The notes: generated by a model from the letters alone, not told the origin. Numbered from the stretch's first letter, positions 132 through 35,168 are shown. The stretch: DNA of 35,168 nt from a virus (IMGVR_UViG_3300032132_000024:1-35168); one strand, 5' to 3'. Numbers and translations are program-made.

Positions 132-154
132 AAACAGAAAAAGGAAATATGTGT

Positions 155-4975: not shown

Positions 4976-4976
4976 T

Positions 4977-5213
4977 ATGACAACGATAACGATAGAAGGA
5001 TTCCCGCCGCTCAAGTTCGACGGAGAGACGTGGACTTGCGAAATACAGGGTTTCGCTGATACGGCAAACGACTTCACACAAAGCGCACCCATGATCCACG
5101 ACGACTATTACCCGGACACGGATATCCTTCTTGCGCGGGAGTTGGCGGAGATCATGGGCGGCAAGGTCACGCAGCACGACCCGCCGGAAGCTATCGAGGG
5201 GCGCATTTACTAA
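4977..5213 (+). CDS. Small acidic protein, function unknown
   Basis: The protein has 78 residues and starts 1 nt after the minor head gene. It is acidic and aromatic, with short beta-like segments at the start (T-I-T-I-E-G-F) and an acidic D-D-Y-Y-P-D-T-D patch. Its stop overlaps the ATG of the next gene by one base, so it belongs to the head-tail connector operon. A head-closure role is possible from position, but no family is recognised. Confidence 0.65.
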   Translation: MTTITIEGFPPLKFDGETWTCEIQGFADTANDFTQSAPMIHDDYYPDTDILLARELAEIMGGKVTQHDPPEAIEGRIY

Positions 5214-5716
5214 TGCTCGACGTATCTATAGATCACGGGGCCGGGGATATACGCAACGCAATCCGCAAGCTGGACAGGTTAAGCACCAAGGCGGGGAGCG
5301 GAATGAAAACCGCATTGCAGCGCATCGGGTTGCGAGTCAAGGGAACCGCACAGGCGTACTGTCCAGAGTCACCGACAAAGGGGCAGTATGTCCGCACGCT
5401 CAAGACGCGCAAGACGAAGCGCAACGACTTCAACCCCGGCGCTCTGCGTAATTCTATTACGAGCAAGTTGGAAGACGAGTCTGTGTTAATATACGTGCCG
5501 TCGAACAGTCCCGGCGGGAAGTACGCCGAGAAGATACACGACGAGCGGGGGAAGACGTGGAAGCACTTGGGGCCGGGTTCCATAGCAAAGAACGTGAGCG
5601 GCAACGTGGGCGACAAGTTCATAGAGAACGCCGGACGTGACGAGCAGAGGAATTTTGAGAGAGAAATTAACGGCGTCATAGCCGACCTTATAAGGGGGTT
5701 TAATCGTGGAAATTGA
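5213..5716 (+). CDS. Tail-completion/neck protein, HK97 gp10-like
   Basis: The protein has 167 residues. It shows the pattern of the HK97-gp10/tail-completion family. A helical N-terminus is followed by a central L-R-N-S-I segment, V-P-S-N-S-P with Y-A-E-K-I-H (about residues 100-113), then G-D-K-F-I-E-N-A near 140. Such proteins sit at the neck and help join tail to head. The gene order (connector, this gene, tail terminator, tube) agrees. It overlaps the next gene by 11 nt. Confidence 0.75.
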   Translation: MLDVSIDHGAGDIRNAIRKLDRLSTKAGSGMKTALQRIGLRVKGTAQAYCPESPTKGQYVRTLKTRKTKRNDFNPGALRNSITSKLEDESVLIYVPSNSPGGKYAEKIHDERGKTWKHLGPGSIAKNVSGNVGDKFIENAGRDEQRNFEREINGVIADLIRGFNRGN

Positions 5717-6173
5717 TATTGCATGGAGCAGCGCGGAAGAGTCAGCGTTCAACGCAATCGCGGAGCATCTTAACCACACGCCGGGGCGCGAGTGTTTCCT
5801 TGGCGCAATGCCGGACAGCATGACGAACGTGTGGATGTTCACCAGCGGCGGCGGGGGCGATGCCGACGTTACGGAGATCATGGCCGGGACGGTCGCGTGT
5901 TATGATGAACTCGTAATGGACGCAACCGCAGAGTGCCGATACGAGACGCGGCGTATGTGTCAGGATTGGGCGATGTCCATTCTTCAACTACTCCGCGACG
6001 GCGTAGAGGACGCGACGACGACCAACCTGCACCACGTCGGGAATATACATATGCTCAACCCGACAGGGCTACCGACAGACCCGACGCCCGCAGCGTTCGG
6101 TGATGGTGTCGAGGCGTGGACGTGTTCGATCCCGTTTCAACTGGTATTCAGAACGAGCGCAGATTTGGGGTAG
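5706..6173 (+). CDS. Probable tail terminator protein
   Basis: The protein has 155 residues and starts at GTG 5706 inside the end of the neck gene. Size and place (after a gp10-like protein, shortly before the tail tube) fit the gpU/gp11-like tail terminator that caps the tube. The sequence mixes helix and strand and ends in a strand-like segment (W-T-C-S-I-P-F-Q-L-V-F) often seen at the end of such proteins. The family assignment is by context, not by a diagnostic motif. Confidence 0.55.
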   Translation: MEIDIAWSSAEESAFNAIAEHLNHTPGRECFLGAMPDSMTNVWMFTSGGGGDADVTEIMAGTVACYDELVMDATAECRYETRRMCQDWAMSILQLLRDGVEDATTTNLHHVGNIHMLNPTGLPTDPTPAAFGDGVEAWTCSIPFQLVFRTSADLG

Positions 6174-8517: not shown

Positions 8518-10251
8518 ATGGCCGCAAAAGAAATAGGCATAAGAATACGCGCCAAGTGGTTGGGCAGGAAGGCTGTTAAAGCAGCCCGCAGCGGTATAAA
8601 GAAAGTTGGACAAGCCGCTAAAAAAATGGGGGCGAGCGTTAAGAACGCATTTACCGGAATGGCTGCGAAGATTGGGGCCAGCGTTGCCATTATGGGGACA
8701 GCGTTTATCGCCATACGCACGGGAATACAGGCCGTAAAGGAAGCGATGAAGTTTGAGAGCGTGCGGCTACAGTTCGCCGTGCTTCTCGGCAGCATGAAGA
8801 AAGCAGAAGTGCAGGTTAAACGCCTGCAAGATTTCAGCGCAGCAACCCCGTTTCAATTTGACGATCTAGCCAAGGGGGCCAAGCAGCTTTTAGTATTTAG
8901 CGAGAACGCACTCGGAACGACAGAGGACTTGCGACGTATAGGTGACGCCGCCGCAATGGCGGGCATGGGTTTCTCTGAAGTCGCATTTTGGGTTGGCCGC
9001 GCTTATGCAGCGATACAGGGCGGGCAACCATTTGGAGAGGCGGCAATGCGCTTAGGTGAGATGGGCATTCTTGCGCCCAAGACCGCCGTTGCCATGCGCG
9101 AGCTAAGGGACGCTGGCGGATCAGCCGCCGATATCTTCGCGCTACTGGAGGGCGACATGAACCGCGCAGACGGAACGATGGCGCTTCTATCGCAGACCGG
9201 GGAGGGGTTAGCGTCAACCGTTCAAGATAATTGGAAGCTCGCCCTTGCTGATTTTGGTGCCGTGCTGCTTAGTCTGGTGAAGGACAGAATGAAGCTGCTG
9301 ATTGACTTCTTGCAGCGCATAAGAAACGACGGGTCTATAGTTAAGTGGGGGATTGCGACCAAGGAAGTTTTGCAAAAGGTTCTTACGTTCCTTGATTCTA
9401 TTCCGGGAAGGTTTAAGGAAATAACGGAAGGGGTGGGAACCGCCGTTGATAAGCTCAAGGGATGGGGCGCAGCTGTAGAAGGGTTTTTCTCCGGTGAGGG
9501 CGGGCTGTTCTCCATAGGCGACCGAATCGAGGGCGGGAAGCTGGCGAAACAACTAGCGGACGAGCGAATTGCTTCTCAACGAAAATTGGAGAAAGACCTT
9601 AAGGGGGTAACGGCGGCACACGGCGACCCTGCCGCAGACAAGCGGGCAGAGGCTGACAAAACCGCGCTGGAGGAAGCAAGGAAGCTGAATGACGAGATTG
9701 CGGCGGCCAAGGCTAAGGCCGCAGCGGACGCGAAGAAGATAGCAGCGGACACGAAAAAAGACGCAGCCGAAAAGGCGGCGGCGATAGAGAACGAGATACG
9801 GCTGACGAGAATGCAGCAGGATGCCCGCGCAAAGGTGCGCGAAGAGGAGAAGCGCGGTATCAGGGAAGAATTGCAGGCGGGCCGGGCTATAGAGGCCGCG
9901 CTCAACAAGCGGGCCGGGCTACAGATAGACGATTTTATTAAAAATGAAAAAGCACGCGGAGACGCCGAGCAGGCCGGAGTGGACGAGCAGGACGAATTTG
10001 ATAAGCTTGTAAAGAAGGAGAAAAAGCGCGGCCATAAAATGAGCCGAAAAGACCGCGAGAGGTTGGCCGCATTTCGGGCGCGGCAAGCCGTCGCCGGGGC
10101 GGCTGCCGTTGAAAATCAGCAGAACGCAGCCCTTGAGGCGAAGTTAAAAAAGATGCAGGAGAAACAGGCGGAAGATATCAGGCTGTCCAAGATAGCCCTA
10201 CAGGATCTAAATAAGCAACTGAAGCCGCTACTCACCGCAAAGGATTCATAA
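8518..10251 (+). CDS. Tape measure protein
   Basis: The protein has 577 residues. The N-terminus is basic and alanine-rich, with a hydrophobic stretch at about 45-70. A conserved tape-measure segment follows: F-E-S-V-R-L-Q-F, Q-D-F-S-A-A-T-P-F-Q-F, the A-A-A-M-A-G-M region and L-S-Q-T-G-E-G-L-A-S-T-V-Q-D-N-W. The C-terminal half is a long charged coiled coil of Ala, Lys and Glu. Tape-measure length sets tail length; 577 residues at about 0.15 nm each suggests a tail near 85-90 nm, a short siphovirus tail. Synteny agrees. Confidence 0.9.
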   Translation: MAAKEIGIRIRAKWLGRKAVKAARSGIKKVGQAAKKMGASVKNAFTGMAAKIGASVAIMGTAFIAIRTGIQAVKEAMKFESVRLQFAVLLGSMKKAEVQVKRLQDFSAATPFQFDDLAKGAKQLLVFSENALGTTEDLRRIGDAAAMAGMGFSEVAFWVGRAYAAIQGGQPFGEAAMRLGEMGILAPKTAVAMRELRDAGGSAADIFALLEGDMNRADGTMALLSQTGEGLASTVQDNWKLALADFGAVLLSLVKDRMKLLIDFLQRIRNDGSIVKWGIATKEVLQKVLTFLDSIPGRFKEITEGVGTAVDKLKGWGAAVEGFFSGEGGLFSIGDRIEGGKLAKQLADERIASQRKLEKDLKGVTAAHGDPAADKRAEADKTALEEARKLNDEIAAAKAKAAADAKKIAADTKKDAAEKAAAIENEIRLTRMQQDARAKVREEEKRGIREELQAGRAIEAALNKRAGLQIDDFIKNEKARGDAEQAGVDEQDEFDKLVKKEKKRGHKMSRKDRERLAAFRARQAVAGAAAVENQQNAALEAKLKKMQEKQAEDIRLSKIALQDLNKQLKPLLTAKDS

Positions 10252-10582: not shown

Positions 10583-11185
10583 ATGGCCGATCAATGGATA
10601 CTCCCCGCAGCCATGAAGGCGGGCGACCCGATCGCTAAAGTTCCGTTCCACTTTTACAACACGGTGGACGAGGTACTTTCACGCCTCCAAGTTTACGGCG
10701 GCACGATAGACAGGGGAACGGATAACACGTGGACGATATACCCGCAGCAATTCGGGGGCGGTACGGCGTCGGGATACCTCAAGCCGCTTGACCTGTACGG
10801 CGTTGACTTGTCCGGCGACACGTACAAGATTCGCGGGGCGGGCGGTCTGTCGAGCAGCTTGGGAAACGTCAACAAGGTATTCGGAATCGCGAGCGTGTGG
10901 ACAGCCATTACAGCCGGGACGCAAGCGCTAGACACGGCGACAGCCATAGCCGCGAGCACTTGGATATATGCAAAGATTGTGACCACGGACAGCGGCGATA
11001 CCGTGACGCTTGAAAAGACGACGAGCACTAGCCATGCATTTTTTGATGGCGGCGACACGGCGGGACAGGCAACGATGAGTATTCCGCTCTGGTTCATACC
11101 GTGGGACGGGGCCGCAACACAGATGGACATTCCGAATATCGAAGACTGGAGAAGTGCGCCATTAATTCCGCGAATGGGAAACTAG
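10583..11185 (+). CDS. Distal tail protein, function unknown
   Basis: The protein has 200 residues. It is beta-rich and Thr/Gly/Ala-rich, with D-T-Y-K-I-R-G-A-G-G in the middle and an aromatic segment (I-P-L-W-F-I-P-W) near the C-terminus. It starts 3 nt after the previous gene and runs into the next one, so it belongs to the tail operon. A tail-tip or fibre-attachment protein is plausible from place and composition. Confidence 0.65.
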   Translation: MADQWILPAAMKAGDPIAKVPFHFYNTVDEVLSRLQVYGGTIDRGTDNTWTIYPQQFGGGTASGYLKPLDLYGVDLSGDTYKIRGAGGLSSSLGNVNKVFGIASVWTAITAGTQALDTATAIAASTWIYAKIVTTDSGDTVTLEKTTSTSHAFFDGGDTAGQATMSIPLWFIPWDGAATQMDIPNIEDWRSAPLIPRMGN

Positions 11186-12324
11186 CGGCCCTGCTCGTTG
11201 CCGTACTCGTACCCGCCGCCGCTCTAGCTGGCTGGCATACAAACGCATGGCCCGCTGACGGCTACCGCTTCAAGGGGTATCAGCGGCAAGTAGACGTGTA
11301 TTCTTCGCTGTGGGAGCGGCTCATGATACAGAGCAACGCAACGCCGACCATTACGCCGCACCCGTCAAGGGGTGGTGTTATCGGTGGCGTGCCGAAACGG
11401 TTTAAGCAACGCGCCAACCTTGTGAGTTACAAGCAAGACTTAGAGCGCACCATTCCAAACTGGATCAATAATACATATTCAAGCAACGATATTTTTACAT
11501 CCATGGCGGACGGCGGCTGGTGGCCTACCAACGGCGCACCCCTAACCAATATGCTCCCCCGGTGGACGGTGACGGGTCTGCTCGATCACGTAGGCGCACC
11601 CACAAACTACCTTGATGTGACACCGTGGTTTAACCTGCACAAGGTATCGAACGGTTGGGCGTATATGCGCCCGCTGGTGAGTAATCTATACGTCAGCTTT
11701 TCGAGAGACACGTCCGTCGGCGGTTCGGTCGGGCAGTTCGACCCCGGCCCGATATCGCGACCCGATGCCGTTGACGGGGTGGTGACGGGCAAGACAATAA
11801 ATTCCCCATTTCTGGAGTCGAACGCGTGGGCGCTAACCAAGACGCTATTTATCGCGAACGTGGAAACCAACCCGGCCTATGGGTTGACCAATCCGGCCAC
11901 AGCGAATGATCTCCCTTGGTTGATAAACTTCCGGGCGATCACGAACAACAACCCGATTTCTGTACAGCCGATAAAGATGTCTGCCCCCGTCGGTAGCAAG
12001 TTCGGATATAACCAAGCCTTGCACATATGGAATCAGCGCCCGCACTACGGGAGGACATACGCCGCATTCGACGGGAAGGTAACGAGCGGCTCGCCCGCTA
12101 CCCATTACGACTATTTCGACTGGTTCGGCATTGCGCCGACCTCAGACGTTGCGTATCTACTACAGGACACCGGGACGCAAACGACTAACGAGGTGAGGAC
12201 TGCGTTTAACTACACCTATACCCCATGGGAGGGCATCCCGGCTTCCCCCGCAAAGTACGATCTGCGCCAAGAGATGAAATGGATACTACACGTCCAGCAT
12301 TACGATATGCACTATGGGCCGTAG
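11101..12324 (+). CDS. Secreted tail-region protein with N-terminal signal peptide
   Basis: This is a frame of 407 codons. The only ATG/GTG/TTG start that keeps the signal sequence is GTG 11101, which lacks a ribosome site. An ATT at 11161, in frame and 6 nt after GGAGAAG, would give a clean signal peptide of N-G-K followed by L-A-A-L-L-V-A-V-L-V-P-A-A-A-L-A, so the true start is uncertain. The mature part is rich in Trp, Asn, Thr and Pro, with repeated T-N-A-W and W-P-T-N motifs. It is the last gene of the late head-tail operon. A receptor-binding or tail-tip role is likely by position, but no family is recognised. The export signal is unusual for a tail protein. Confidence 0.65.
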   Translation: MGRGRNTDGHSEYRRLEKCAINSANGKLAALLVAVLVPAAALAGWHTNAWPADGYRFKGYQRQVDVYSSLWERLMIQSNATPTITPHPSRGGVIGGVPKRFKQRANLVSYKQDLERTIPNWINNTYSSNDIFTSMADGGWWPTNGAPLTNMLPRWTVTGLLDHVGAPTNYLDVTPWFNLHKVSNGWAYMRPLVSNLYVSFSRDTSVGGSVGQFDPGPISRPDAVDGVVTGKTINSPFLESNAWALTKTLFIANVETNPAYGLTNPATANDLPWLINFRAITNNNPISVQPIKMSAPVGSKFGYNQALHIWNQRPHYGRTYAAFDGKVTSGSPATHYDYFDWFGIAPTSDVAYLLQDTGTQTTNEVRTAFNYTYTPWEGIPASPAKYDLRQEMKWILHVQHYDMHYGP

Positions 12325-12543: not shown

Positions 12544-12776
12544 GATGGCGCGTATTTCTCACAAGCCAGCGTGACCAGCTTGCGCCTGTGATCCGTGTCG
12601 AGCATAGCCCACAGAGCACCAAGGCCGCTGTCCATCAGGACGTTCAACTTCTCGACCCGGTAAGCGTCGGCTATGTCGTCGCCATAGACCGCGCTTATTA
12701 CCTCGTCCGCCCGCTTGTTGGACACGTACAGGAACACGTACCCGACGGCCTTGCAATGTTCGTCGATGTTGCTCAT
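12540..12776 (-). CDS. Small early protein, function unknown
   Basis: The protein has 78 residues. It starts at the GAACATG of an A/C-rich leader (minus strand, about 12777-12812) like those of other early genes. It is acidic and helical, with V-F-L-Y-V-S-N-K-R-A-D-E-V-I near the start and A-M-L-D-T-D-H-R-R-K-L near the end. It lies in a three-gene leftward operon under the 13.06-kb promoter. Function unknown. Confidence 0.7.
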   Translation of the reverse strand: MSNIDEHCKAVGYVFLYVSNKRADEVISAVYGDDIADAYRVEKLNVLMDSGLGALWAMLDTDHRRKLVTLACEKYAPS

Positions 12777-12780
12777 GTTC

Positions 12781-12978
12781 TTAGCTCCGTTGTTCGTGTT
12801 GTTGTTCTTTTATTTTGTCCTCAAGAATGGCGAGTGCGAGATATGCCGACCGCCCGACCCGTGAGTGCGTTGCGATGTAGCGCTTATGTTCGAGGAGGTC
12901 ATGGCGCAAAACTTCGATGTCGTCGCATATCGCCGACCGATCCGCCTGACTAAGGGTATTCCATTCAAGTCTCGTCAT
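12781..12978 (-). CDS. Small early protein, function unknown
   Basis: The protein has 65 residues from ATG 12978, which has AGGGA 4-5 nt upstream. The open frame extends further to an Asn-rich stretch, but that part coincides with the predicted 5' leader of the transcript, so I exclude it. The product is a charged helical protein (L-R-H-D-L-L-E-H-K-R-Y, then A-I-L-E-D-K-I-K-E). Its last codons are overlaid by the A/C-rich leader of the next gene. Confidence 0.6.
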   Translation of the reverse strand: MTRLEWNTLSQADRSAICDDIEVLRHDLLEHKRYIATHSRVGRSAYLALAILEDKIKEQQHEQRS

Positions 12979-13009
12979 GGAGTCCCTGATCTCTAGCGGC
13001 GTGCGGTTC

Positions 13010-13064
13010 GTGTTGTTGTTCGTTGTCATGGTGATAGAATGCGCCCATTCCCCAAAAACGGCAA
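13010..13064 (-). promoter_or_regulatory. Leftward sigma70-like promoter with A/C-rich leader
   Basis: On the minus strand, -35 TTGCCG (13064-13059) and -10 CATTCT (13041-13036) are separated by exactly 17 bp. The predicted start, about 13029, falls on the ATG of the A/C-rich leader. The bases before the -35 read AAAATAGTTC, close to the matching region of the 26.8-kb and 28.5-kb promoters (AAATAGTTG). It would drive 12978, 12776 and 12543. Confidence 0.6.
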
Positions 13065-14186: not shown

Positions 14187-14327
14187 TTAGCTTGCCAGTT
14201 TCAGCAGGATATATGTGGACGCCGCATAGCTAATCCACAACCCCGCGAATAGCGGCTTGCCTTGTGTTATGTAACTAACCCCCGCCCCAACTTCCAGAAC
14301 GATGATCGTGAAGAGGAACCAATTCAT
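14187..14327 (-). CDS. Mini membrane protein (two predicted helices)
   Basis: The protein has 46 residues. ATG 14327 overlaps the stop of the previous ORF as ATGA. It is mostly hydrophobic, with W-F-L-F-T-I-I-V-L at the start and a second segment (L-F-A-G-L-W-I-S-Y-A-A-S-T-Y-I-L-L) at the end, separated by a short polar turn. Holins have such hairpin topologies, but this gene is in an early operon, so a lysis role is not implied. Confidence 0.55.
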   Translation of the reverse strand: MNWFLFTIIVLEVGAGVSYITQGKPLFAGLWISYAASTYILLKLAS

Positions 14328-14476
14328 ATCAGAACCTCCAGCAAAAGCATCGCGCACATTATACAGGCACCGATAGCGAAAGGCAACGCGCTTTCCCTGT
14401 GTCCAATTGCATCAGCCAGAGCGGAACACGTACAGAACCCGACAAACGCCATGAGCATAATTACTTCCGCCGTCAT
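14324..14476 (-). CDS. Mini membrane protein (two predicted helices)
   Basis: The protein has 50 residues. ATG 14476 overlaps the stop of the 14790 gene as ATGA, and its own stop overlaps the next ATG the same way. Two hydrophobic segments (about 5-20 and 31-50) are joined by a short turn with H-R-E. With the next gene it makes a tandem pair of tiny membrane proteins. Function unknown. Confidence 0.55.
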   Translation of the reverse strand: MTAEVIMLMAFVGFCTCSALADAIGHRESALPFAIGACIMCAMLLLEVLI

Positions 14477-14790
14477 GAATAGATTCTCCATTCCGTTATG
14501 ACCGCGTGAGGGAGAACCGTCTTGTCTCGCCGGGTGTCGTGGTCTTCATCGTACCAAGCGCCCGTTTCGATAACCGTGCGGCGTGTTCCCTGCGCTGGCT
14601 GATTCCATTCGGCAACGTATCCGATGGCCCAAGCCCGCGCCATGCAGTCTCCGGCAACCATGCAGCCGGACACGATGTCAACCCACTCGACCCGCACAAG
14701 GTCACCGACTTTCGGCTTGCGTACTTGGTGGCGGTCGAGCGTCTCATGCTCCCGCATCTGCCGCTTGTAGGTATCGCTATATTGATACAC
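14473..14790 (-). CDS. Small early protein, function unknown
   Basis: The protein has 105 residues from GTG 14790, which shares a base with the upstream TAG stop. The N-terminus is polar and basic (Y-K-R-Q-M-R-E-H-E). The rest looks beta-rich (D-L-V-R-V-E-W-V-D-I, then R-R-T-V-I-E-T-G-A-W-Y) and could be a small barrel. Coupling to both neighbours supports it as real. No family is recognised. Confidence 0.65.
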   Translation of the reverse strand: MYQYSDTYKRQMREHETLDRHQVRKPKVGDLVRVEWVDIVSGCMVAGDCMARAWAIGYVAEWNQPAQGTRRTVIETGAWYDEDHDTRRDKTVLPHAVITEWRIYS

Positions 14791-15032
14791 TAGACGTTCC
14801 TCCAGTCGGCGGTGTCGGTGTAGTAATAGATAGAGCCATTGCGGTGCTTGTATTTCGCGGAAATCGTTCGCTCGCTCCCGGCGTACTGCCGACCCTCCCG
14901 CAGCATGTGACGCGCTTCGTCCTCGTCACGCGCTCCGCGTATGTGCTTGTGCGGCGGCGACGTGTTGGAGGCACGGGGCAACCGCTTGCGCGATGCCTCC
15001 GCCGCCTCCCGCATTCTGGCGTCGTCGGTCAT
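14790..15032 (-). CDS. Small early protein, function unknown
   Basis: The protein has 80 residues. ATG 15032 overlaps the ERF stop as TAATG. It is very hydrophilic and basic, rich in Arg, Glu and Ala, with a P-P-H-K-H motif and a C-terminal aromatic run (S-I-Y-Y-Y-T-D-T-A-D-W). The same DNA is open further upstream in this frame, but that part lies antiparallel inside the ERF codons and is rejected. Confidence 0.6.
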   Translation of the reverse strand: MTDDARMREAAEASRKRLPRASNTSPPHKHIRGARDEDEARHMLREGRQYAGSERTISAKYKHRNGSIYYYTDTADWRNV

Positions 15033-16219: not shown

Positions 16220-16411
16220 TTACTTTCCACCGTTTCCCCCTGTCCTGTTACCGATTCCCCAAGGTATCGAATCCGACCAACGCGCATTAGCCCCTGCGCG
16301 ATATGCCGCCAGCCGCTCCTCGCTCCATGTCTTGCCCTTGTCGCCGCCGTTGTACCCGGAAGCCCATGCCTTGCCGTATACGCTGTTTTTTCCGTGTTGG
16401 TTGTTCGTCAT
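16220..16411 (-). CDS. Small early protein, function unknown
   Basis: The protein has 63 residues. The start lies in an AAGGAACTAAGAACATG translation signal shared with other early genes. It is Gly/Asn/Lys-rich and basic, with aromatic residues (Y-G-K-A-W-A-S-G-Y-N, then W-S-E-E-R-L-A-A-Y-R-A-G), which suggests a small nucleic-acid-binding protein. This is composition-based only. Confidence 0.6.
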   Translation of the reverse strand: MTNNQHGKNSVYGKAWASGYNGGDKGKTWSEERLAAYRAGANARWSDSIPWGIGNRTGGNGGK

Positions 16412-16415
16412 GTTC

Positions 16416-16613
16416 TTAGTTCCTTTCCTTTTTCTTGAGATGTTCCCGTGTCTCTTCCGCTGCCTGCTTCGGGGTCTTGGAGCCATCCCGCACGGCGTTC
16501 ATTAACTCCTCCAACTTAGGGTCGAGGGGCAACGGCGTCCGATTCGCTGCCCTTCGCTGCCGCATCTTCAAGAGCTGCCCGTCTGTCATTCCCATTTTGT
16601 TTGGATTAGCCAT
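16416..16613 (-). CDS. First gene of the leftward early operon, function unknown
   Basis: The protein has 65 residues from ATG 16613. The in-frame upstream part (to 16655) is the Asn-rich A/C leader. The predicted transcription start lies at about 16655, so I place the start at the GAACATG. The protein is basic and helical (Q-L-L-K-M-R-Q-R-R-A-A-N-R, then A-A-E-E-T-R-E-H-L-K-K-K). As the first gene under the 16.68-kb promoter, it is probably made early. Confidence 0.65.
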   Translation of the reverse strand: MANPNKMGMTDGQLLKMRQRRAANRTPLPLDPKLEELMNAVRDGSKTPKQAAEETREHLKKKERN

Positions 16614-16876: not shown

Positions 16877-19114
16877 ATGAAATACGCCCTCTCTATTCTC
16901 GCCGCACTCGCTCTCCCCGTGTTAGCCCTTGCGGCTGACCCGTATATAAAGACCAAGGTTGACGGCGACAGGCCGCGCCAGCCGTGGAGCATCGACACCC
17001 GACAAGGCGACACGCCTACGGCCCGCATCTATACATATATCGGCGGCAAGAAGTGGGTCGCGGATACCAACTGGATACCCGTTCTCGGTTGGGGAACCAA
17101 CGGGCAATACTCGACCGGGCTGCACTCGATTACGGGCAACGCTGACGGCGTGAACAATTACGCGAAATTTAATATCCCCCTCGCGCTCACAGGAACGAGC
17201 GGCACGTTTTACGCAAGTTTTTCCATGACCAACCGCGTTGATGCGCGACGGTTTACTTGGCCAGACGGACGCTTCTTGCTTGACCGCAACCCGGCCTCCG
17301 GTGGCAATGCCCTTGCGGCAATTTCCAACATACTCGATTTCTCGCTGCTAACCGTACTGAACCGCCCCTACTTGATATCGTCCGACACAAGCGGCTGGAG
17401 CGTTGTATCTAGCGGCGACATCTTCACGAACTGGCTTGCCGTGTCTGGTTCACGGCTCACGCTGGCGGGCGCAGGGCGGAGCGGGTCTAACACTATCGGC
17501 CTGACGGACGCGGCGATACAGGGTGCCGCGACGGGTGCCGTTCATGGATCATACTTGCACGTCAACTCTACAGCCGCATGGGTTATCGCGTCGATCACGA
17601 ACGCGCTCAACGATTCGGTCGTAGCGCTCAACGCGGCGAGTAACACCTTCGAGGCGGATATAAACGCGCTCGTCGCGGCGAGCAATCGACCGAGCCTTAC
17701 GCAAGTCTCCGACGTGGGAAACAGGCACGGCGACGGGTTGCGGGGTGTCGAGTTGGTCGCGGGTGGCCCGGACTACGCGTTCATGGCAAGCAACGGAACG
17801 ATTCGCGTGCGGCTTGCCGATGGTGCCAACGCGGCGGCGGGATACTTTCGCGGGAGCACGGGTACGGATATAATTACAATCGGGGAAAACGCGGGCGGCT
17901 CGACGTTTTCAAACTCCTCCGGCTATGTTGATGTCCTAAAAAATTCCGTTGGCCTTGGCAACCGGGTCGGCACGTCTGCGGGATTGTTTCAACTCGGCAA
18001 CGTAGTCGGTTCGACGGCTATCATAGCGACGAACACCGGGGGCCGGATTGCGCTCGGCACGGCAACGAACCCGCTCACCATTCTCGCGGGCGATGGCTTG
18101 GCATTCCTGCCCGGCGGTATAGACTTCGGCAACGCGGAGGCGTTCGCGGCTAAATACACAATGGCAAACCTTGTTGACGGTCACGTTTTGACATGGGACA
18201 GCGGAAAATCTGCATGGACGAACGAGGCGCAGTCTGGTGGACTGCCTGCGTCCGCGACGAATGTTATGGTGACGTTTGCGATGACGAACGGGTGGAACGT
18301 GAGCGCGGGTGGTGGTGGAACGCTCGCGACCAGCGCACAATACACGGTCACGTTTCGCCACGCTGATTTGGCGGCAGGCGTTCTGACCGTTGACCACGGA
18401 CTTGCCAGCACGGGACAGATCGTGCAGGTGTTCCGCACTCAGGCTACAGGATATGACGAGATCATCTCGCCAGATGCGGTGAGTGTATCGAATATGAATA
18501 CTGTGCTCGTTGATCTGACCACGTTCGGATCGTTCGCTTGGACGGGCCGCGTGACCGTAGCCGGGTCGAGCGTGACTGCTGCGCTTGGTAACTATCTGCA
18601 ATCGGCACAGACGAATGGGTGGGATGTATCGGGTGGGGGCGACACAACGACCAATATGTATGCGAGCGTATATTTTGCGGGACGATACCCGACATTCGCT
18701 GCATCCACGTTTGCGCGTGTTGATCCCGATGCGGAGCACAGCGACATCCACAACATTTACGATCCGGTTGTGGGTGCTATCACGCCACCGTATACAAACG
18801 TGTGGATCAGTCTATCTATTGAGGCATGTCTGGATGGTGCGTCTGGAGTCGATAATCACGGATGGGTGATTCAGACGAACGATGCCGCGACGGGTGGCGT
18901 AAAGTATTATAAGAACATTCAAGATCAAGGCATCAATGGGATAGCCCCACTCGCTGCGTCTTGGTTCCACAAGGACAGCGCAATATCGAACTATCCGCTG
19001 TGGTTCTTTCACCAGTACGCAAGCACATATTCATTCGTAACGGGTCTTAACTCGCAAGCGGATTCGGATACGCCGTTCCGCATGATCGTGAATATAACGA
19101 AGGAGCAACCATGA
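16877..19114 (+). CDS. Large secreted fibre/receptor-binding-like protein
   Basis: The protein has 745 residues from ATG 16877, chosen because it opens a clean Sec signal peptide (M-K-Y-A-L-S-I-L-A-A-L-A-L, cleavage after A-L-A). The mature protein is Asn/Thr/Gly/Ala-rich and repetitive, like a trimeric fibre shaft, with short coiled-coil stretches around V-A-L-N-A-A-S-N-T-F. T-N-G-W-[ND]-V-S modules occur at about residues 470 and 579. A small fibre domain lies between them (V-D-H-G-L, then I-V-Q-V-F). The last 150 residues look like a C1q/TNF-type beta head. It heads an operon whose genes overlap by ATGA. Receptor binding is inferred. A signal peptide on a fibre is unusual. Confidence 0.75.
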   Translation: MKYALSILAALALPVLALAADPYIKTKVDGDRPRQPWSIDTRQGDTPTARIYTYIGGKKWVADTNWIPVLGWGTNGQYSTGLHSITGNADGVNNYAKFNIPLALTGTSGTFYASFSMTNRVDARRFTWPDGRFLLDRNPASGGNALAAISNILDFSLLTVLNRPYLISSDTSGWSVVSSGDIFTNWLAVSGSRLTLAGAGRSGSNTIGLTDAAIQGAATGAVHGSYLHVNSTAAWVIASITNALNDSVVALNAASNTFEADINALVAASNRPSLTQVSDVGNRHGDGLRGVELVAGGPDYAFMASNGTIRVRLADGANAAAGYFRGSTGTDIITIGENAGGSTFSNSSGYVDVLKNSVGLGNRVGTSAGLFQLGNVVGSTAIIATNTGGRIALGTATNPLTILAGDGLAFLPGGIDFGNAEAFAAKYTMANLVDGHVLTWDSGKSAWTNEAQSGGLPASATNVMVTFAMTNGWNVSAGGGGTLATSAQYTVTFRHADLAAGVLTVDHGLASTGQIVQVFRTQATGYDEIISPDAVSVSNMNTVLVDLTTFGSFAWTGRVTVAGSSVTAALGNYLQSAQTNGWDVSGGGDTTTNMYASVYFAGRYPTFAASTFARVDPDAEHSDIHNIYDPVVGAITPPYTNVWISLSIEACLDGASGVDNHGWVIQTNDAATGGVKYYKNIQDQGINGIAPLAASWFHKDSAISNYPLWFFHQYASTYSFVTGLNSQADSDTPFRMIVNITKEQP

Positions 19115-19530
19115 TTCGCTCTATCATTATTTGTCTGCTGCTGATGACCGTGCCCGTGTTTGCGGAGCACGAAACGAATCACTATTTTATCGTGGATTCT
19201 ACGACTGCGGAGTTTGAAGGCGCGACTGCGATATGGACAGACGATCCGATTCTGTCGAGCGGCATTCCCGATGCGTTGAAGCAGCAAGAGGCTGGAGTGG
19301 TTTGGGTCGAAGTGACCAGCGAGCAGTACGCCGCAGGCTTTGAGGCGTATGGTTCTGCCGCTGCTGAAGCTGCGAGGGCCGCAGCAGTAGCCGACATCGA
19401 GTCACTCTGGACAGAGATAGAACGCAAGGCCCATGTGATGCAGTTCTTGATGGATAACCGGATACGTGTTTTGGAAAGTCGCGGCACAAATACATGGGCG
19501 CAGTACAAGTCTGAGGTGGATGCATTATGA
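19111..19530 (+). CDS. Secreted protein in the fibre cluster, function unknown
   Basis: The protein has 139 residues and overlaps its neighbours at both ends by ATGA. A signal peptide covers residues 1-18 (I-I-I-C-L-L-L-M-T-V-P-V-F-A). The middle is alanine-rich and helical (A-A-A-E-A-A-R-A-A-A-V-A-D-I-E) and predicted to be a coiled coil, followed by a charged helical tail. Position just after the large fibre suggests a fibre accessory or assembly factor. Confidence 0.6.
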   Translation: MIRSIIICLLLMTVPVFAEHETNHYFIVDSTTAEFEGATAIWTDDPILSSGIPDALKQQEAGVVWVEVTSEQYAAGFEAYGSAAAEAARAAAVADIESLWTEIERKAHVMQFLMDNRIRVLESRGTNTWAQYKSEVDAL

Positions 19531-20195
19531 AGAAGCTGATCGCAACAATCGCAATGCTCGCCAGTTTGTCTGCGTCCGGTAAAGAGTTCGGCACGGTCAA
19601 CGGCACGGTTGGCACGTTCAACTCCTTGACCAACGCTGGCTCTCCTGTTCTTAAGGCATCCGACACAAACGGCTGGGACGTGAGCGCGGGTGGTGGTGGT
19701 GGCGGTAACGCTGACGACACAAACTACTGGGGGCAACTCGCATACGGATCGAACGATTGGCAGACGCTGCCAACTGGCGTCACTAATGACTGCATCTTCT
19801 CGCTTGAGGTTGCAGATTTCGGCAACATGTGTGATCCGGCAACAGGTTTCATCACGACACGAAAAACTGGGTGGTGGGAAGTCTACGCATCCTACTGGAT
19901 GGTGCATCCAATCGGAATACAAAAGCTTGGGATATTTTCAGTTATGACGAACGACTGCCACTGGATTTCAACCCCTATTAGTTCAACGTATAATATGTCC
20001 CATCAGGCGCAAGTTTATCACGTACAGACCCGTGCCTACCTACCGTCGGGAACGGTTGTGCGGTGTACGTTTTACCATAACAACGGAACAGACCGAGTGG
20101 CGGGTGGATACGTCGGCCATGCTGACGGTTCAGGGAATTACCACAGCTACCCGGACAACGTATCTGTTTTCATAATGGATTTCATACAGGAATAA
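19527..20195 (+). CDS. Secreted C1q-like fibre-tip protein
   Basis: The protein has 222 residues. A signal peptide (K-K-L-I-A-T-I-A-M-L-A-S-L-S-A-S-G) is followed by a short stalk and the module T-N-G-W-D-V-S-A-G-G-G at about 47-57, also present in the large fibre. From residue 75 on the sequence looks like a C1q/TNF jelly roll: D-P-A-T-G-F-I-T-T-R-K-T-G-W-W-E-V-Y-A-S-Y is the typical F-x(n)-G-x-Y/W-beta pattern. Such heads bind ligands at fibre tips. A 22-nt identical run joins 19678-19699 to 18297-18318, suggesting duplication or exchange. Confidence 0.7.
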   Translation: MKKLIATIAMLASLSASGKEFGTVNGTVGTFNSLTNAGSPVLKASDTNGWDVSAGGGGGGNADDTNYWGQLAYGSNDWQTLPTGVTNDCIFSLEVADFGNMCDPATGFITTRKTGWWEVYASYWMVHPIGIQKLGIFSVMTNDCHWISTPISSTYNMSHQAQVYHVQTRAYLPSGTVVRCTFYHNNGTDRVAGGYVGHADGSGNYHSYPDNVSVFIMDFIQE

Positions 20196-20197
20196 AT

Positions 20198-20755
20198 ATG
20201 AAACTACTCGCAACAATCGCGCTGCTCGTCGGCTTGACTGTTTCTACACACGCTGCTGATTGGTACTGGGCTACTGATCTGAGTACGGCAGACGCTGAAA
20301 CAGTTTATCGTTCGTGGCTGATGGACAACGTAAGCACCAATGCTGCTGTTGCTGCCACACCAGAGGTTCTCACCTTTGTTGACGGACAGACCCATGTGAT
20401 TGGCCTTGATGGTGTAACTCCCGCGCAACTCACTACGCTCGCCGCATCTATGAGCGCAGCAGACATAACTGCTGCTGCAAAGGCTATCGAGTACGCCGAA
20501 AACGGATGGTCGATAGCCGTGCAGAATAATGCCGCTTCCAATATCGTCGCGCTCGCCACCTCATACGGCGTAACGGATCAGCCTGTACCGTGGGCCGATG
20601 TTGCCGCAGCAATAGTGGCAGAGGAACAGGCTGCGCTTGCGAGCAGCAATGAGTTTCGGCTGTTGATCGCAATCGGAGACGGAACCAAGATGCTCAGTTA
20701 CTATGAGTTTTATACCGCGAACGGTGGCGACACCAAGAACGTAGTCGCGCCATAG
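20198..20755 (+). CDS. Secreted alanine-rich protein in the fibre cluster
   Basis: The protein has 185 residues. The signal peptide (residues 1-19, K-L-L-A-T-I-A-L-L-V-G-L-T) shares DNA identity with the preceding gene's signal, so they probably arose by duplication. The mature protein is Ala/Thr-rich, with helical segments and no Cys, and contains V-S-T-N. It starts 2 nt after its neighbour. Its role is unknown, but it sits with fibre proteins. Confidence 0.6.
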   Translation: MKLLATIALLVGLTVSTHAADWYWATDLSTADAETVYRSWLMDNVSTNAAVAATPEVLTFVDGQTHVIGLDGVTPAQLTTLAASMSAADITAAAKAIEYAENGWSIAVQNNAASNIVALATSYGVTDQPVPWADVAAAIVAEEQAALASSNEFRLLIAIGDGTKMLSYYEFYTANGGDTKNVVAP

Positions 20756-20764
20756 GATGCAGAG

Positions 20765-21187
20765 ATGCAAGATCCGTATGAATGGACGAGGGTGACATGG
20801 GACGGAGCAGGCGCGAGACAGATTCCCCGGAGCAAGACCATACGGATTCCCGTGCGGGAGGCGAATCGTACACGACTGTCGATAAAAATTATGCAATCTC
20901 TATCGGTTGCCTCCGCACTCTTGCTTGCATGGTGGTTCCCCTTCTCTGGGGCATCTTCCAGTTCGACGCTCGATTCAAACACCTTGAAGCAAAGCAAGGA
21001 CGATCTGGATGGGATCGAGAACAGTCTATACGTCAATGGGAAGCATTTTCAGATCTTAACCCCTCAAACATCGTGCCCGACCCGCGATGTATCGGATACC
21101 ACGATCCCCGATCAGGACAATGGATTCGACCATCGCATTCTCCAGCAGTCCACCCGTGACACATCAAACATAAAGGTGTTGAAATGA
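20765..21187 (+). CDS. Putative membrane protein, possible lysis/envelope gene (frame A)
   Basis: The protein has 140 residues. An AGGA lies 7 nt before the ATG, and the stop overlaps the next ATG as ATGA, both normal here. One hydrophobic segment (V-A-S-A-L-L-L-A-W-W-F-P-F) at about 49-61 divides a basic N-terminus from a Ser/Asp-rich tail. A second frame (20782-21159) is also open and protein-like across the same DNA, so one or both may be real. With the lipoprotein behind it, a spanin-like pair is possible but unproven. Confidence 0.45.
   Translation: MQDPYEWTRVTWDGAGARQIPRSKTIRIPVREANRTRLSIKIMQSLSVASALLLAWWFPFSGASSSSTLDSNTLKQSKDDLDGIENSLYVNGKHFQILTPQTSCPTRDVSDTTIPDQDNGFDHRILQQSTRDTSNIKVLK
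20782..21159 (+). CDS. Alternative overlapping ORF with one membrane helix (frame B)
   Basis: The ORF has 125 residues from ATG 20782, without a clear ribosome site. The N-terminal 40 residues are hydrophilic (R-S-R-R-E-T-D-S-P). A membrane segment follows (C-L-R-T-L-A-C-M-V-V-P-L-L-W-G-I-F), then a charged helix (F-D-A-R-F-K-H-L-E-A-K-Q). This layout resembles an inner-membrane holin or i-spanin, with composition at least as convincing as frame A. It ends 25 nt before the lipoprotein gene. Confidence 0.4.
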   Translation: MDEGDMGRSRRETDSPEQDHTDSRAGGESYTTVDKNYAISIGCLRTLACMVVPLLWGIFQFDARFKHLEAKQGRSGWDREQSIRQWEAFSDLNPSNIVPDPRCIGYHDPRSGQWIRPSHSPAVHP

Positions 21188-21561
21188 AAATATTAGTATC
21201 GTTGGTTCTGGTAGCGCTCTTGTCCGGGTGTACTTCTAGTGGCAGATCCGCCACGTCCTACGGCCCGATTCTATGTGCCGCTGACGGTCAGCCTGTCGTC
21301 GGCGCGTTCGTGCGGCGAGAGGCCGCAGAGGAGAAACCCCCGATGTCGATGGGCAAGAAGATCGCCATCGGTGCGGTCGCGGCTGGCGCAATCTACGCAG
21401 CGGGAGAGGAGTGGATATGGGGCGGCAAGGGTGGACGGCATCAAGACACCAGCACGCCCCCGGTGCAGGAGATTGAGAACCAGACCGTCGTTGACATTTC
21501 CAACAACAGCGGGAGCGTTGACGTTGTTATTATACGCGACGATGCGGACGCTGGAATATAG
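21184..21561 (+). CDS. Lipoprotein (possible outer-membrane spanin subunit)
   Basis: The protein has 125 residues. The N-terminus M-K-I-L-V-S-L-V-L-V-A-L-L-S-G-C is a lipoprotein signal; the lipobox L-S-G-C places the lipid on Cys16. A second hydrophobic stretch (I-A-I-G-A-V-A-A-G-A-I-Y-A-A-G) lies at about 57-71. An acidic tail with strand-like segments follows. It overlaps the preceding TM gene, as o-spanin genes often do, but it is longer than typical Rz1. The lipoprotein call is strong; the spanin role is uncertain. Confidence 0.6.
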   Translation: MKILVSLVLVALLSGCTSSGRSATSYGPILCAADGQPVVGAFVRREAAEEKPPMSMGKKIAIGAVAAGAIYAAGEEWIWGGKGGRHQDTSTPPVQEIENQTVVDISNNSGSVDVVIIRDDADAGI

Positions 21562-22150: not shown

Positions 22151-22221
22151 TTGGCATGGCTAGTGCTTATACAAGCTGTCGATGAAGGAAACGAACAACA
22201 ACACGAACCACGGAGAAAAGA
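22151..22221 (+). promoter_or_regulatory. Rightward early promoter, sigma54-like, with A/C-rich leader
   Basis: TTGGCATG, GCTA, GTGCT with GG (22153-22154) and GC (22165-22166) 10 bp apart repeats the 16.68-kb element almost exactly. The predicted start (about 22178) lies just before ATG 22182. The leader 22182-22221 is A/C-rich with repeated AAC, then GGAG and AAAAGAACATG. A sigma70 alternative fits less well because TATACA has no -35 at the right distance. Confidence 0.55.
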
Positions 22222-28876: not shown

Positions 28877-28895
28877 ACCGAAAGGAACACAGAAC

Positions 28896-29114
28896 ATGAC
28901 GAACGAACACCAATGTTGCGAGAGTGTTAGAGAGAGCGGACAATGGCCCCGATACCACCAATGCAAACGCAAGGCGGTCAAGGAGGGATACTGCAAGCAG
29001 CATCACCCCGATGCTGTTGAGGCGAGGCGGTACAAGGCCGTCGCGCGATATGAGGAAAGGCGGTTGAGAATGCTCCTACTAGACAAAGCATTTGCCGACA
29101 AGTACTACGAATAA
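28896..29114 (+). CDS. Small Cys/His zinc-finger-like protein (paralogue B)
   Basis: The protein has 72 residues from ATG 28896, preceded by AAAGGAACACAGAACATG-type spacing. The core C-C-E-S-V-R-E-S-G, then R-Y-H-Q-C-K-R and G-Y-C-K-Q-H-H-P-D-A-V is shared with 22222, giving a conserved C and H set suited to zinc. The C-terminus is a basic, Arg/Leu-rich helix. Two copies at different early promoters suggest duplication of the promoter-gene unit. Confidence 0.7.
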   Translation: MTNEHQCCESVRESGQWPRYHQCKRKAVKEGYCKQHHPDAVEARRYKAVARYEERRLRMLLLDKAFADKYYE

Positions 29115-32352: not shown

Positions 32353-32447
32353 AAGATCGCGCGTCAGCTATCCTGCTTGTGTTCCTCATGCTTGCCACGC
32401 TCGGTATTTATTCCGCGCTTGTGGTGGTCATGTTCTGCACGTTCTAA
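32349..32447 (+). CDS. Mini membrane protein
   Basis: The protein has 32 residues from GTG 32349, overlapping the HIT stop. A charged start (K-D-R) leads into a hydrophobic segment (A-I-L-L-V-F-L-M-L-A-T-L-G-I) and further to V-V-V-M-F-C-T-F, with no other polar stretch. It may be a single-pass membrane peptide at the end of the accessory operon. Confidence 0.45.
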   Translation: MKDRASAILLVFLMLATLGIYSALVVVMFCTF

Positions 32448-32612
32448 CGCGCCGATTTGATCGTTTCATTTTCGGAAATTCGCAGGGCCGAGAGGGGGTA
32501 CGGTTTTGACCCGAAAAAAAACCACTTTGGAAAATAAACGGACTTGATAATGCATCGAATCTGCACGTTTGCCCGCTGTTCATAGGGCTAGATCTACGCG
32601 CCGAAAAATGAG

Positions 32613-32668
32613 CTTAAGCGGTACTTAAGTTGCACTTAAGTTCAACCAACCAGAACCAGAACCAGAAC
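32613..32668. repeat. Second iteron array, non-coding, upstream of the portal promoter
   Basis: Three tandem 11-bp repeats (32613-32623, 32624-32634, 32635-32645), then CCAAC, then CAGAAC three times (32651-32668). This is the same architecture as at 23345-23406 inside the initiator gene (CATAAC there). One frame even reads L-S-S-T-N-Q-N-Q-N-Q-N-K, like the initiator linker, but a stop lies just upstream, so it is not coding. The surrounding 367 bp hold no gene. It may be a second origin or a switch site. Confidence 0.6.
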
Positions 32669-32748
32669 AAGACTAGTAGAGTGTAAATATACAGAGTGTG
32701 ATCGAACGCTGTTCGTCGCCCCCTGTGACCGTGTTCCATGGCGTGCGT

Positions 32749-32814
32749 TTGTACGGCTGCGCGTAGTCGGCTATCATTCCCCCGAATGCACACAACACCG
32801 GGAGAAGGATAATC
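32749..32814 (+). promoter_or_regulatory. Promoter for the late head/tail operon
   Basis: -35 TTGTAC (32749-32754) and -10 TATCAT (32772-32777) are 17 bp apart; the predicted start is about 32784. GGGAGAAGG follows as ribosome site before ATG 32815. The iteron-like array is 80 bp upstream of the -35. An inverted GGTTTT/AAAACC pair lies further up (near 32501-32522). Confidence 0.55.
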
Positions 32815-34380
32815 ATGGCTGGCGACGACTACTGGGGGCGGGGGAACGTGATCGGCAATATGCCGCTCGATCTTACTGGCAAGATGGATTCCACATCCAC
32901 GCCGGAAGATATCATCCTCAAGCAGATGCACCCCGTACTGGCTGCACGCGGCCCACAGATCGCAATTAACCACCTCGCCTATGGAGGCGGTCGTGCGTAC
33001 ATCGCAGCCCGCCTGTCGCGCTTTGCTGGCGAGAGCGAGATTGAGTGGGACGGCGGCACACGCAAAGACGGTAGCAAGATCACGGGGCGGCTGGCACGTA
33101 GCCACCACGTCCCGCTGATACGCCGCATGGTAAACAAGCTCTCGCAGTACGTCTTCCAGACCCCACCGGGCCGCGACGGGATAGACCCCGACGTTGAGGA
33201 AGATATCACGCTCACGGGCCAACGGCTCGACCTGTTCATGCAGCAGCTTCTCGCGACGGTTGCGAGCAGTCAATGGGCATGGGTCGGCGTAGACACCCCG
33301 GCCACAGGCGCGGCGGAAATGACCGAAGCGGACAAGGTGACGGAGCGCATTCGCCCATTCTGGCGCATATACAATCCCGGCGACGTGATGGATTGGGAGT
33401 TCAACCGCACAGGCGGGCTAGAGTGGGTTAAGGTGCGCGGTGTAGAGACGATCTCTAACGGCCCCATAGGGTTGCGTACAACCCGCGAGACACGCACGAT
33501 ATGGAGCCGCGGTGAGGTTACGCGCTACACGGCGAACGAAGACGGCACCGAGATAGAGAGCAAGCAGACGAGCCCGGTCAGCATCCAGAGCGTGCCGTTC
33601 TTCCCGGTCGGCAACATATCGACCGACCCGTCAGAGATGGACGATTTAGAGGGCATGAATGCCACCGTGATGGATTTAGAAAGCGCGAACAGAGAGAACT
33701 ATTTTAAAGGCGTATACCCGCAGAAGTATCTGCCCGCGTCCGTACTGGAACACGCGAAAGAAGCATACAGCATGGAGGGGCCGGAAGCGCTGTCGATGGT
33801 CATGGGCCTTGCGTATCCCATCCTGCTTGAGCCGGGCGACCCGACGCCGGGTATCATCATGCCGGACGCATCGAGCACGGCAACGATCCGCACCGAGATC
33901 AACGAGCTAAAGGACGCGATGAAAGAGTGTTTCGGGATGATGCTCCAGAAGCAGACGCGGCAAGCTGAATCCGCCGAGGCTAAGGCGTGGGATCATCTCG
34001 ACGTGGAAGCGGTCATGCGCGTGAACGCCGATATGCTGGCAGACGCCGAGCGCAAGGCTGTCGCGCTATCGAGCGAGTGGGACGCATCCTTCAAAACATG
34101 GACGCCGGAATACAGCGTCGATTTCGACGTGGGCGATTTCAAGGGCGACATCGAGGCGATTGTCGCAGCGATGAACGCGACCAGCCACCCCGAAAGCGTG
34201 AAGCGCATGTTCGAGCGCAAGCTTGTCGAGCGCGTTGACCGTATCGGTTCCCGTGCCACAGTTGAAGAAATGGCCGAAATGCGCGAAGATATAGCGAGTC
34301 ACGAATCCGACCCGGTGATGATCGACATTGACGCGGCCACACAGGGCGACGAGGACGAGGGCGAAGAAGACGAGGGGTAA
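32815..34380 (+). CDS. Portal protein
   Basis: The protein has 521 residues. Size, helical C-terminus, acidic tail (D-E-D-E-G-E-E-D-E-G) and gene order (first of the structural operon, followed by scaffold and coat) fit a portal. Segments such as R-R-M-V-N-K-L-S-Q-Y-V-F, W-R-I-Y-N-P-G-D-V and T-A-T-I-R-T-E-I-N-E-L-K-D-A-M-K-E resemble DUF4055-like portals. Portal dodecamers form the DNA channel, take the terminase and later bind the connectors. Confidence is high for portal, lower for the family. Confidence 0.85.
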   Translation: MAGDDYWGRGNVIGNMPLDLTGKMDSTSTPEDIILKQMHPVLAARGPQIAINHLAYGGGRAYIAARLSRFAGESEIEWDGGTRKDGSKITGRLARSHHVPLIRRMVNKLSQYVFQTPPGRDGIDPDVEEDITLTGQRLDLFMQQLLATVASSQWAWVGVDTPATGAAEMTEADKVTERIRPFWRIYNPGDVMDWEFNRTGGLEWVKVRGVETISNGPIGLRTTRETRTIWSRGEVTRYTANEDGTEIESKQTSPVSIQSVPFFPVGNISTDPSEMDDLEGMNATVMDLESANRENYFKGVYPQKYLPASVLEHAKEAYSMEGPEALSMVMGLAYPILLEPGDPTPGIIMPDASSTATIRTEINELKDAMKECFGMMLQKQTRQAESAEAKAWDHLDVEAVMRVNADMLADAERKAVALSSEWDASFKTWTPEYSVDFDVGDFKGDIEAIVAAMNATSHPESVKRMFERKLVERVDRIGSRATVEEMAEMREDIASHESDPVMIDIDAATQGDEDEGEEDEG

Positions 34381-34467: not shown

Positions 34468-35168
34468 ATGACATACGAAGACGCACAAAAGATATTGCTA
34501 GATGGCGGCGACGTTACGGACGAAGTTCGTAGCGCGTTGGGATCATTTGATCCGCAAGCGGCTATCGCGGCAGAACTGGAAAAGCAAAAGAACTCATTAG
34601 CGGCGGCGGCACGCAAGGACGCGGAAAGCAAGGCGGAAGCATTGCGGGCGCAACTTGACGAGGCACAGGCCAAGGCTGACGAGAGCGAAAGCAAGACCGG
34701 GACAGCAGCGGAGCAGCACGCGAAACAGATGAAGATTCTCGCTGACAAGATCGACGCAATGCAGGCAGAGTCCGCCGCCGACAAGGCGCAGGCGACTAAG
34801 CTCCTGCGAGATGCCGCGGTGTCAAAGGTGATCGGCTCGCAACGATTCAACCAGAAGATCGTGACGGACGACTACGCTCGACTGCTGGCGGATAGTGCAT
34901 TGGGTGGACTCGACACGGAGCAGATAAGCGACCCGGCCATTACTGGCCCGTTGTTTGACGCTCTGCGTGCGGAGAAGCCAGACCTGTTCATGGTCGATAC
35001 ACCATCTGGCGCGGGCGGCGTGGAAGGCACGGGCGGAACGGCTCCGGTGTCGCAGATTGAGGGTTCAGCCCTGCTACATACTGCGATGTCGGGTGACTTA
35101 GCATCAGCCGAGAAGGCGCTTGCTACGGTCGAGGCTGGACTGTCCGACGGTTCCGTTGATCTCACAAA
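34468..35168 (+). CDS. Capsid scaffolding protein, N-terminal part (continues at position 1)
   Basis: The whole protein has 234 residues. It begins M-T-Y-E-D-A-Q-K-I-L; the middle is an alanine/glutamate/lysine-rich coiled coil (L-R-A-Q-L-D-E-A-Q-A-K-A, then A-K-Q-M-K-I-L-A-D-K-I-D-A-M-Q-A). A globular C-terminal part ends at 131 on the far side of the join. Placement between portal and coat, coiled-coil core and lack of a protease motif fit an internal scaffold. GAGGGAGC lies 8 nt before the ATG. Confidence 0.8.
   Translation, partial: MTYEDAQKILLDGGDVTDEVRSALGSFDPQAAIAAELEKQKNSLAAAARKDAESKAEALRAQLDEAQAKADESESKTGTAAEQHAKQMKILADKIDAMQAESAADKAQATKLLRDAAVSKVIGSQRFNQKIVTDDYARLLADSALGGLDTEQISDPAITGPLFDALRAEKPDLFMVDTPSGAGGVEGTGGTAPVSQIEGSALLHTAMSGDLASAEKALATVEAGLSDGSVDLT
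35042..35168. repeat. Terminal direct repeat (assembly circle closure), right copy
   Basis: Identical to 1-127. See that entry; most likely the same locus read twice at the ends of a circular contig. Confidence 0.95.

Follow-up and report, generated by a model that had tools for sequence, protein, structure and literature searches.

Tailed-phage assembly is taught as entirely cytoplasmic. The fibre cluster at positions 16877-21561 of the viral genome IMGVR_UViG_3300032132_000024 raises the question of why several proteins of such a phage would begin with export signals. A sequence-only reading of this locus had offered periplasmic assembly, secreted receptor-modifying proteins and captured host-surface proteins as explanations; the evidence presented here favours virion surface proteins to which export signals were added.

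Signal peptides in the window

The window, i.e. the whole stretch of 35,168 nucleotides that was analysed, is a complete-looking tailed-phage genome with 127-nt identical ends and a unit of 35,041 bp. Its approximately 46 genes include those for terminase, portal, scaffold, capsid (phrog_267), minor head protein, tail proteins and tape measure as well as ERF, DnaB and a C5 methylase. The partial set of window genes tested contained no recognisable integrase gene, and none of 50,697 isolated phages was related to the window at the DNA level. The features used below, with the relatives G001, G002 and G003 and the prophage-bearing genome G376 for comparison, are:

34468-35166, across the circle: scaffold, upstream neighbour of the slot at 149-610
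149-610, plus strand: protein with a Sec signal at residues 1-23 (149-217), MCMKYILATLAVLGVFGVLSASA/AVQ; encoded in the head-decoration slot, flanked by the scaffold and major capsid genes
644-1543, plus strand: major capsid protein, no signal (internal control); phrog_267 (2.2e-14), 48% identical to G001
8518-10251, plus strand: tape measure protein, unsignalled; related proteins occur in prophages of the signal-rich class described below (L194, 28%; L205, 27%)
10583-11185, plus strand: tail-end adaptor-like protein, no signal (internal control); by eye like the G001 4901-6016 type, also unsignalled
11101-12324, plus strand: Sec-signalled tail-end protein of uncertain start (GTG 11101 or ATT 11161)
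16877-19114, plus strand: large modular tail fibre; signal 16877-16933 (MKYALSILAALALPVLALA/ADP); middle and tip common to G002 and G003, N-terminal domain different
19111-19530, plus strand: small signalled fibre-cluster protein; signal 19111-19164; G002 homologue 91% identical, signal kept
19527-20195, plus strand: short fibre; signal 19527-19580; TNGWDVSAGGG linker in common with 16877; beta-rich tip probable; G002 homologue signalled
20198-20755, plus strand: small fibre-cluster protein with a signal at 20198-20254; signal also present in the homologues of G002 (79%) and G003 (47%)
20782-21159, plus strand: single-TM lysis-region protein; by eye like G002 22820-23257 and G003 18203-18589
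21184-21561, plus strand: lipoprotein (LLSG/C lipobox) of the lysis region in o-spanin-like position, outside the fibre set
32815-34380, plus strand: portal, unsignalled; matches in G001 (36%), G376 (33%) and Lentisphaeria prophages (about 24-28%)
12767-13033, 16395-16427 (minus strand), 22165-22354, 26826-26910, 28490-28537 and 28880-29026: copies of a repeated leader

Signal peptides were called by a rule-based test that required a charged n-region, a 10-residue uncharged hydrophobic core and either an AxA-like -3/-1 site or a lipobox. At annotated starts the rule flagged exactly 149/155, 16877, 19111, 19527 and 20198 as Sec signals and 21184 as a lipoprotein signal, so the textbook signals previously described at 155, 16877, 19111, 19527 and 20198 were confirmed. 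The Sec-type calls have the features of signal peptidase I substrates, namely a basic n-region, a hydrophobic h-region and an AxA-type site at residues 15-30. Two further window genes scored solely from implausible internal starts deep within the tape measure and DnaB genes. With 6 of 46 genes signalled, the window exceeds the background of 22 in 1159 genes (1.9%) determined for 80 terminase-related viral contigs (binomial p = 2e-4); shuffled N-termini scored at a rate of 1.8%. The portal, scaffold, capsid, tail tube, tape measure and tail-end adaptor genes of the window are unsignalled.

For the gene in front of the capsid gene the start at 149 (ATG TGT ATG) has a better ribosome site than 155, and the signal is identical from either. 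Neither this protein (PF09956 profile included) nor 16877 matched a Pfam or PHROG family, and AlphaFold predictions reached pLDDT values of 40 for 155-610 (one sequence as input) and 34 for 19527 (two sequences), too poor for use. It is the position of 149-610 beside the capsid gene that suggests a decoration role. The claim of a further signal at 11101/11161 held for the peptide but less so for the gene start: the frame encodes a textbook signal (...KLAALLVAVLVPAAALA/GWHT), and the start is doubtful because in-frame start codons are limited to GTG 11101, CTG 11146 and ATT 11161, of which the last sits 9 nt behind GGAG. The gene at 21184 had been counted with the fibre cluster; its lipobox was recovered, but it lies in the lysis region between the single-TM protein and a DUF1353-like gene (21565). 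Both lipobox and lysis-cassette place beside a TM protein are as in an o-spanin, and the comparison with spanin profiles gave no more than a weak match to the Rz-like phrog_456 (E 0.6). The 21184 product is an ordinary lysis-cassette lipoprotein and has to be removed from the signalled fibre set.

Three other features of the window were noted. At its C-terminus the minor head protein (2384-4975) is extended by a long segment containing two HExxH-like motifs (THEYAHALEFAH and IHEMSHALEYA), which suggests metallopeptidase-like domains fused to a head protein. A repeated leader with a ATGACNACGAACAACAACACGAAC-like start and a GAGAAAAGAACATGAA site stands upstream of many small early genes on both strands and is possibly a shared translational or regulatory element. 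The terminase (25480-26745) is closest to many viral contigs sharing almost no other gene with the window; that it does not travel with the portal is a sign of module exchange. As 0 of 80 terminase relatives share at least three genes with the window, the terminase was dropped as a host marker.

Signals in related phages and on head-decoration proteins

As a check, a search for the trait in phages of the same host had been proposed; the related phages G001, G002 and G003 all show it. G001 has a capsid 48% identical to that of the window and the same head gene order; its scaffold and capsid genes flank a signalled gene (14221-14829), and two more follow the tail genes. G002 and G003 have a head module unlike that of the window and share its fibre cluster, with signalled homologues of 16877, 19111, 19527 and 20198 in G002 and of 16877 and 20198 in G003. 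Their fibre carries an N-terminal domain different from that of 16877, as expected if it binds a different tail, with its own signal in front. The N-terminal domain is thus exchanged between phages with different tails, as in tail fibres, and each version keeps its own signal. Identity between 19111 and its G002 homologue is 72% in the signal and 93% in the mature part (dN of 0.138 versus 0.031), with dN/dS of approximately 0.2 in both parts; for 20198 and G003 the values are 22% and 50% identity. The signals drift in their residues and keep the basic start, the uncharged core and the AxA-type site, as real signals do.

Directly behind the capsid gene of G002, the gene at 8759-9283 encodes a Phage_cement_2 protein (PF09956; 4.9e-12, 46.6 bits versus a curated cut-off of 24), which also matches the head decoration family phrog_122 (2.5e-12); the match begins at residue 25 (profile position 2). 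Predicted cleavage at SFA/A leaves AMNFVRGAG..., aligned with the native N-terminus of unsignalled members, i.e. the signal is an extra N-terminal segment that ends exactly where ordinary family members start. G003 likewise has a signalled PF09956 protein directly behind its capsid gene. The decoration-slot protein of G001 is a signalled member of phrog_11997 (2.9e-13), homologues of which lack a signal in the Pseudomonas phages JG054 and Rollin and in ctgrD200; in JG054 the gene directly follows the major head protein gene. Since PF09956 and phrog_11997 are phage families that are unsignalled elsewhere, the signal must have been added, and signals appear to have been gained ahead of phage head proteins at least twice, in two unrelated families. 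Homologues without signals had been named as a finding that would overturn the idea of export; they exist, in phages of other hosts, yet do not refute it, as they point to a gain of the signal in the present phage group and not to a mistaken signal call.

The window, the phage G001 and the prophage of G376 have a head module in common, and in their decoration slots (32420-32809 in G376) three signalled proteins are found among which no similarity was detected. Signalled genes also lie directly behind the capsid gene in G539, G607 and G561, and before or behind it in G376. None of 29 cement loci examined (cements found in 387 Verrucomicrobiota genomes) had a clean signal, and G176, G583 and G287 carry unsignalled cements within the signal-rich class. 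The prophage cements L143-L150 from Verrucomicrobiota form a divergent Phage_cement_2 branch with a basic/hydrophobic N-terminus (..ARPVFAN.. in several); they were excluded as further signalled cements because their N-termini are not clean signals.

Distribution among prophages and the likely host

Verrucomicrobiota were examined because 5 of 18 terminase matches in genome contigs belonged to Lentisphaeria. Prophages with signalled tail fibres were found in G176 and G244. In order to search independently of signals, the unsignalled tape measure gene of G176 was run as bait against the 345 genomes of its class, which is distinct from the Lentisphaeria class and, judging by its size, probably Kiritimatiellia. 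The bait recovered 12 prophages with usable contigs. In 11 of them Sec signals occur in the 9 kb that follow the tape measure; over all 12, this stretch has 23 signalled genes out of 88, compared with 4 of 53 upstream. In 16 other cement-bearing Verrucomicrobiota prophages, 4 of 197 genes are signalled (p = 1e-9 versus 23 of 88), where the two sets were excised by slightly different rules and both gene caller and signal rule were home-made. Signals are hardly ever found on portal, capsid, tail tube or tape measure genes. Among the signalled genes are unmistakable fibres, e.g. a collagen-like fibre of G376 (36533-38314; phrog_5073 tail fibre, 2.1e-34) and a G244 fibre with PAFTGTPTAP repeats (phrog_7032, 5.8e-5). 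One G284 prophage region and the BppU-like fibres L164 13602 and L192 10117 are exceptions within the class; as decoration and fibre genes there can lack signals, export is not obligatory.

The trait is not phylum-wide: in a prophage (L155) with a cement like that of the Lentisphaeria genome G004, the late region is complete and includes a collagen-like fibre gene, and one lysis lipoprotein has the only signal. The window capsid family was found in the signal-rich class (G376, 4e-62) and in 0 of 197 genomes of the Lentisphaeria class, so a member of the signal-rich class or a near relative is the likely host; a capsid scan of genome contigs gave nothing, the match coming solely from the within-class search. 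In a further phage contig with an unrelated head (L066; 15880-19056 of IMGVR_UViG_3300009528_000012), the major capsid gene (phrog_10, 5e-40) is immediately followed by two genes with signals, one encoding 255 aa (Sec) and the other 287 aa (lipobox), and the trait may therefore not be confined to one bacterial class.

A proposed two-compartment assembly route and its alternatives

That the export signals are real, conserved and evolving, and sit on decoration-slot and fibre genes and very rarely on other late genes, is well supported by these comparisons. As to what they serve, we give an even chance to a route of dressing at the exit, by which the outermost, last-added virion proteins would be Sec-exported, processed and joined to the particle at lysis. 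In known phages decoration proteins and fibres are added last and from outside. The 149-610 protein, the fibres 16877 and 19527, their companions 19111 and 20198 and probably 11101 would carry cleavable Sec signals when made, pass into the periplasm and lose the signal to the host signal peptidase, while capsids and tails would be assembled without them in the cytoplasm. Once the inner membrane is opened at lysis, the stored mature proteins would bind to capsids and tails. Cleavage, periplasmic location, attachment at lysis and any advantage are deduced from the pattern of signals; the advantage could lie in keeping receptor-binding proteins away from the cytoplasm or in masking receptors before release. 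The trait would be typical of the phages that infect a single class of Verrucomicrobiota, probably Kiritimatiellia. Late dressing is feasible, since in vitro the decoration protein pb10 of T5, once purified, attaches to heads that are already filled with DNA (PMC5292684). A benefit from periplasmic disulphide formation was considered and is unsupported (0.82 Cys per 100 residues in signalled mature proteins versus 1.14).

The main rival is that the signalled proteins remain at the surface of the infected or lysogenic cell, or outside it, as receptor-masking adhesins, free decoys or lysogenic-conversion proteins and are not virion parts. Lom of lambda has a signal peptide and is encoded between tail-spike and fibre genes (PMC12309495), the position of the signalled cluster, with tail genes on one side and lysis genes on the other, is a usual one for cargo genes, and the long signalled proteins L164 10202, L204 3643 and L194 8247 match no fibre family. 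However, the signal is found in a head-decoration family and in unmistakable tail fibres, which counts for the set as a whole and not for every member; the decoration-slot genes either separate the scaffold gene from the capsid gene or immediately follow the latter, fibre N-termini swap with tail type, and lysogenic cargo is less likely in the window, where no integrase was recognised in the partial gene set. We consider this rival unlikely.

It is rather improbable that the hydrophobic N-termini are uncleaved or phage-protease-cleaved elements, such as assembly tags, trimerisation or membrane anchors inside the virion. Virion proteins are otherwise assembled in the cytoplasm, and the odd N-termini of L143-L150 would suit such elements, but basic start, uncharged core and AxA-type site are all kept despite residue change, the unrelated head and fibre proteins have nothing else in common, and tail fibres are out of reach for an internal head protease. 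Export could also be a by-product of taking fibre and decoration genes from host surface-protein genes, the signal being tolerated or skipped via internal starts. The host genomes of the signal-rich class do encode many signalled proteins, and the signals of the phage genes resemble those of the host genes next to them; since PF09956 and phrog_11997 are phage families to which the signal was added, and the 19111 signal is under purifying selection in the one pair tested, we hold this to be very improbable.

Returning to export followed by attachment at lysis, its stronger form, a two-compartment virion assembly in which decoration and receptor-binding proteins are stockpiled in the periplasm via Sec, is put forward tentatively, at somewhat below an even chance. 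As far as we found, such a route is undescribed for Caudoviricetes; the literature searched held no precedent for signal peptides on decoration proteins or tail fibres. If true, part of the tailed-phage particle would be built in another compartment in the phage community of one bacterial class, which would account for keeping receptor-binding proteins off the cytoplasm or blocking receptors before release, and processed N-termini are predicted in virions. For annotation, such genes are liable to be called host secreted proteins and dropped from phage gene catalogues.

Tailed phages are known to use the host Sec pathway for lysis proteins, i.e. Sec-exported endolysins such as that of fOg44 (as cited in PMC4640515) and spanin lipoproteins; 21184 is of that ordinary kind, whereas the other signalled proteins would act in the virion. 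Lambda Lom and other signalled cargo of fibre regions share the signal peptide and the late-operon place, but Lom is an outer-membrane beta-barrel and belongs to neither a fibre nor a head-decoration family. Compared with the cement proteins (PF09956, phrog_122; by analogy lambda gpD and T5 pb10), the G002 and G003 genes are profile members right behind the capsid gene and differ in a 24-residue Sec-type signal ahead of the normal N-terminus, while the corresponding slot of the window, ahead of the capsid gene, is occupied by a small protein unrelated to them. The fibres resemble modular tail fibres (phrog_5073 and similar collagen-like or repeat fibres) in their repeats, exchangeable tips, tail-specific N-terminal domains and position behind the tail genes, but have a signal peptide ahead of the tail-binding end. 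The coat proteins pVIII and pIII of Inoviridae are virion proteins with Sec signals. Inoviruses, however, extrude through the membrane without lysis, whereas the window encodes a tailed dsDNA phage with terminase, portal, major capsid, tape measure and lysis genes, in which the signals are confined to the late-added parts.
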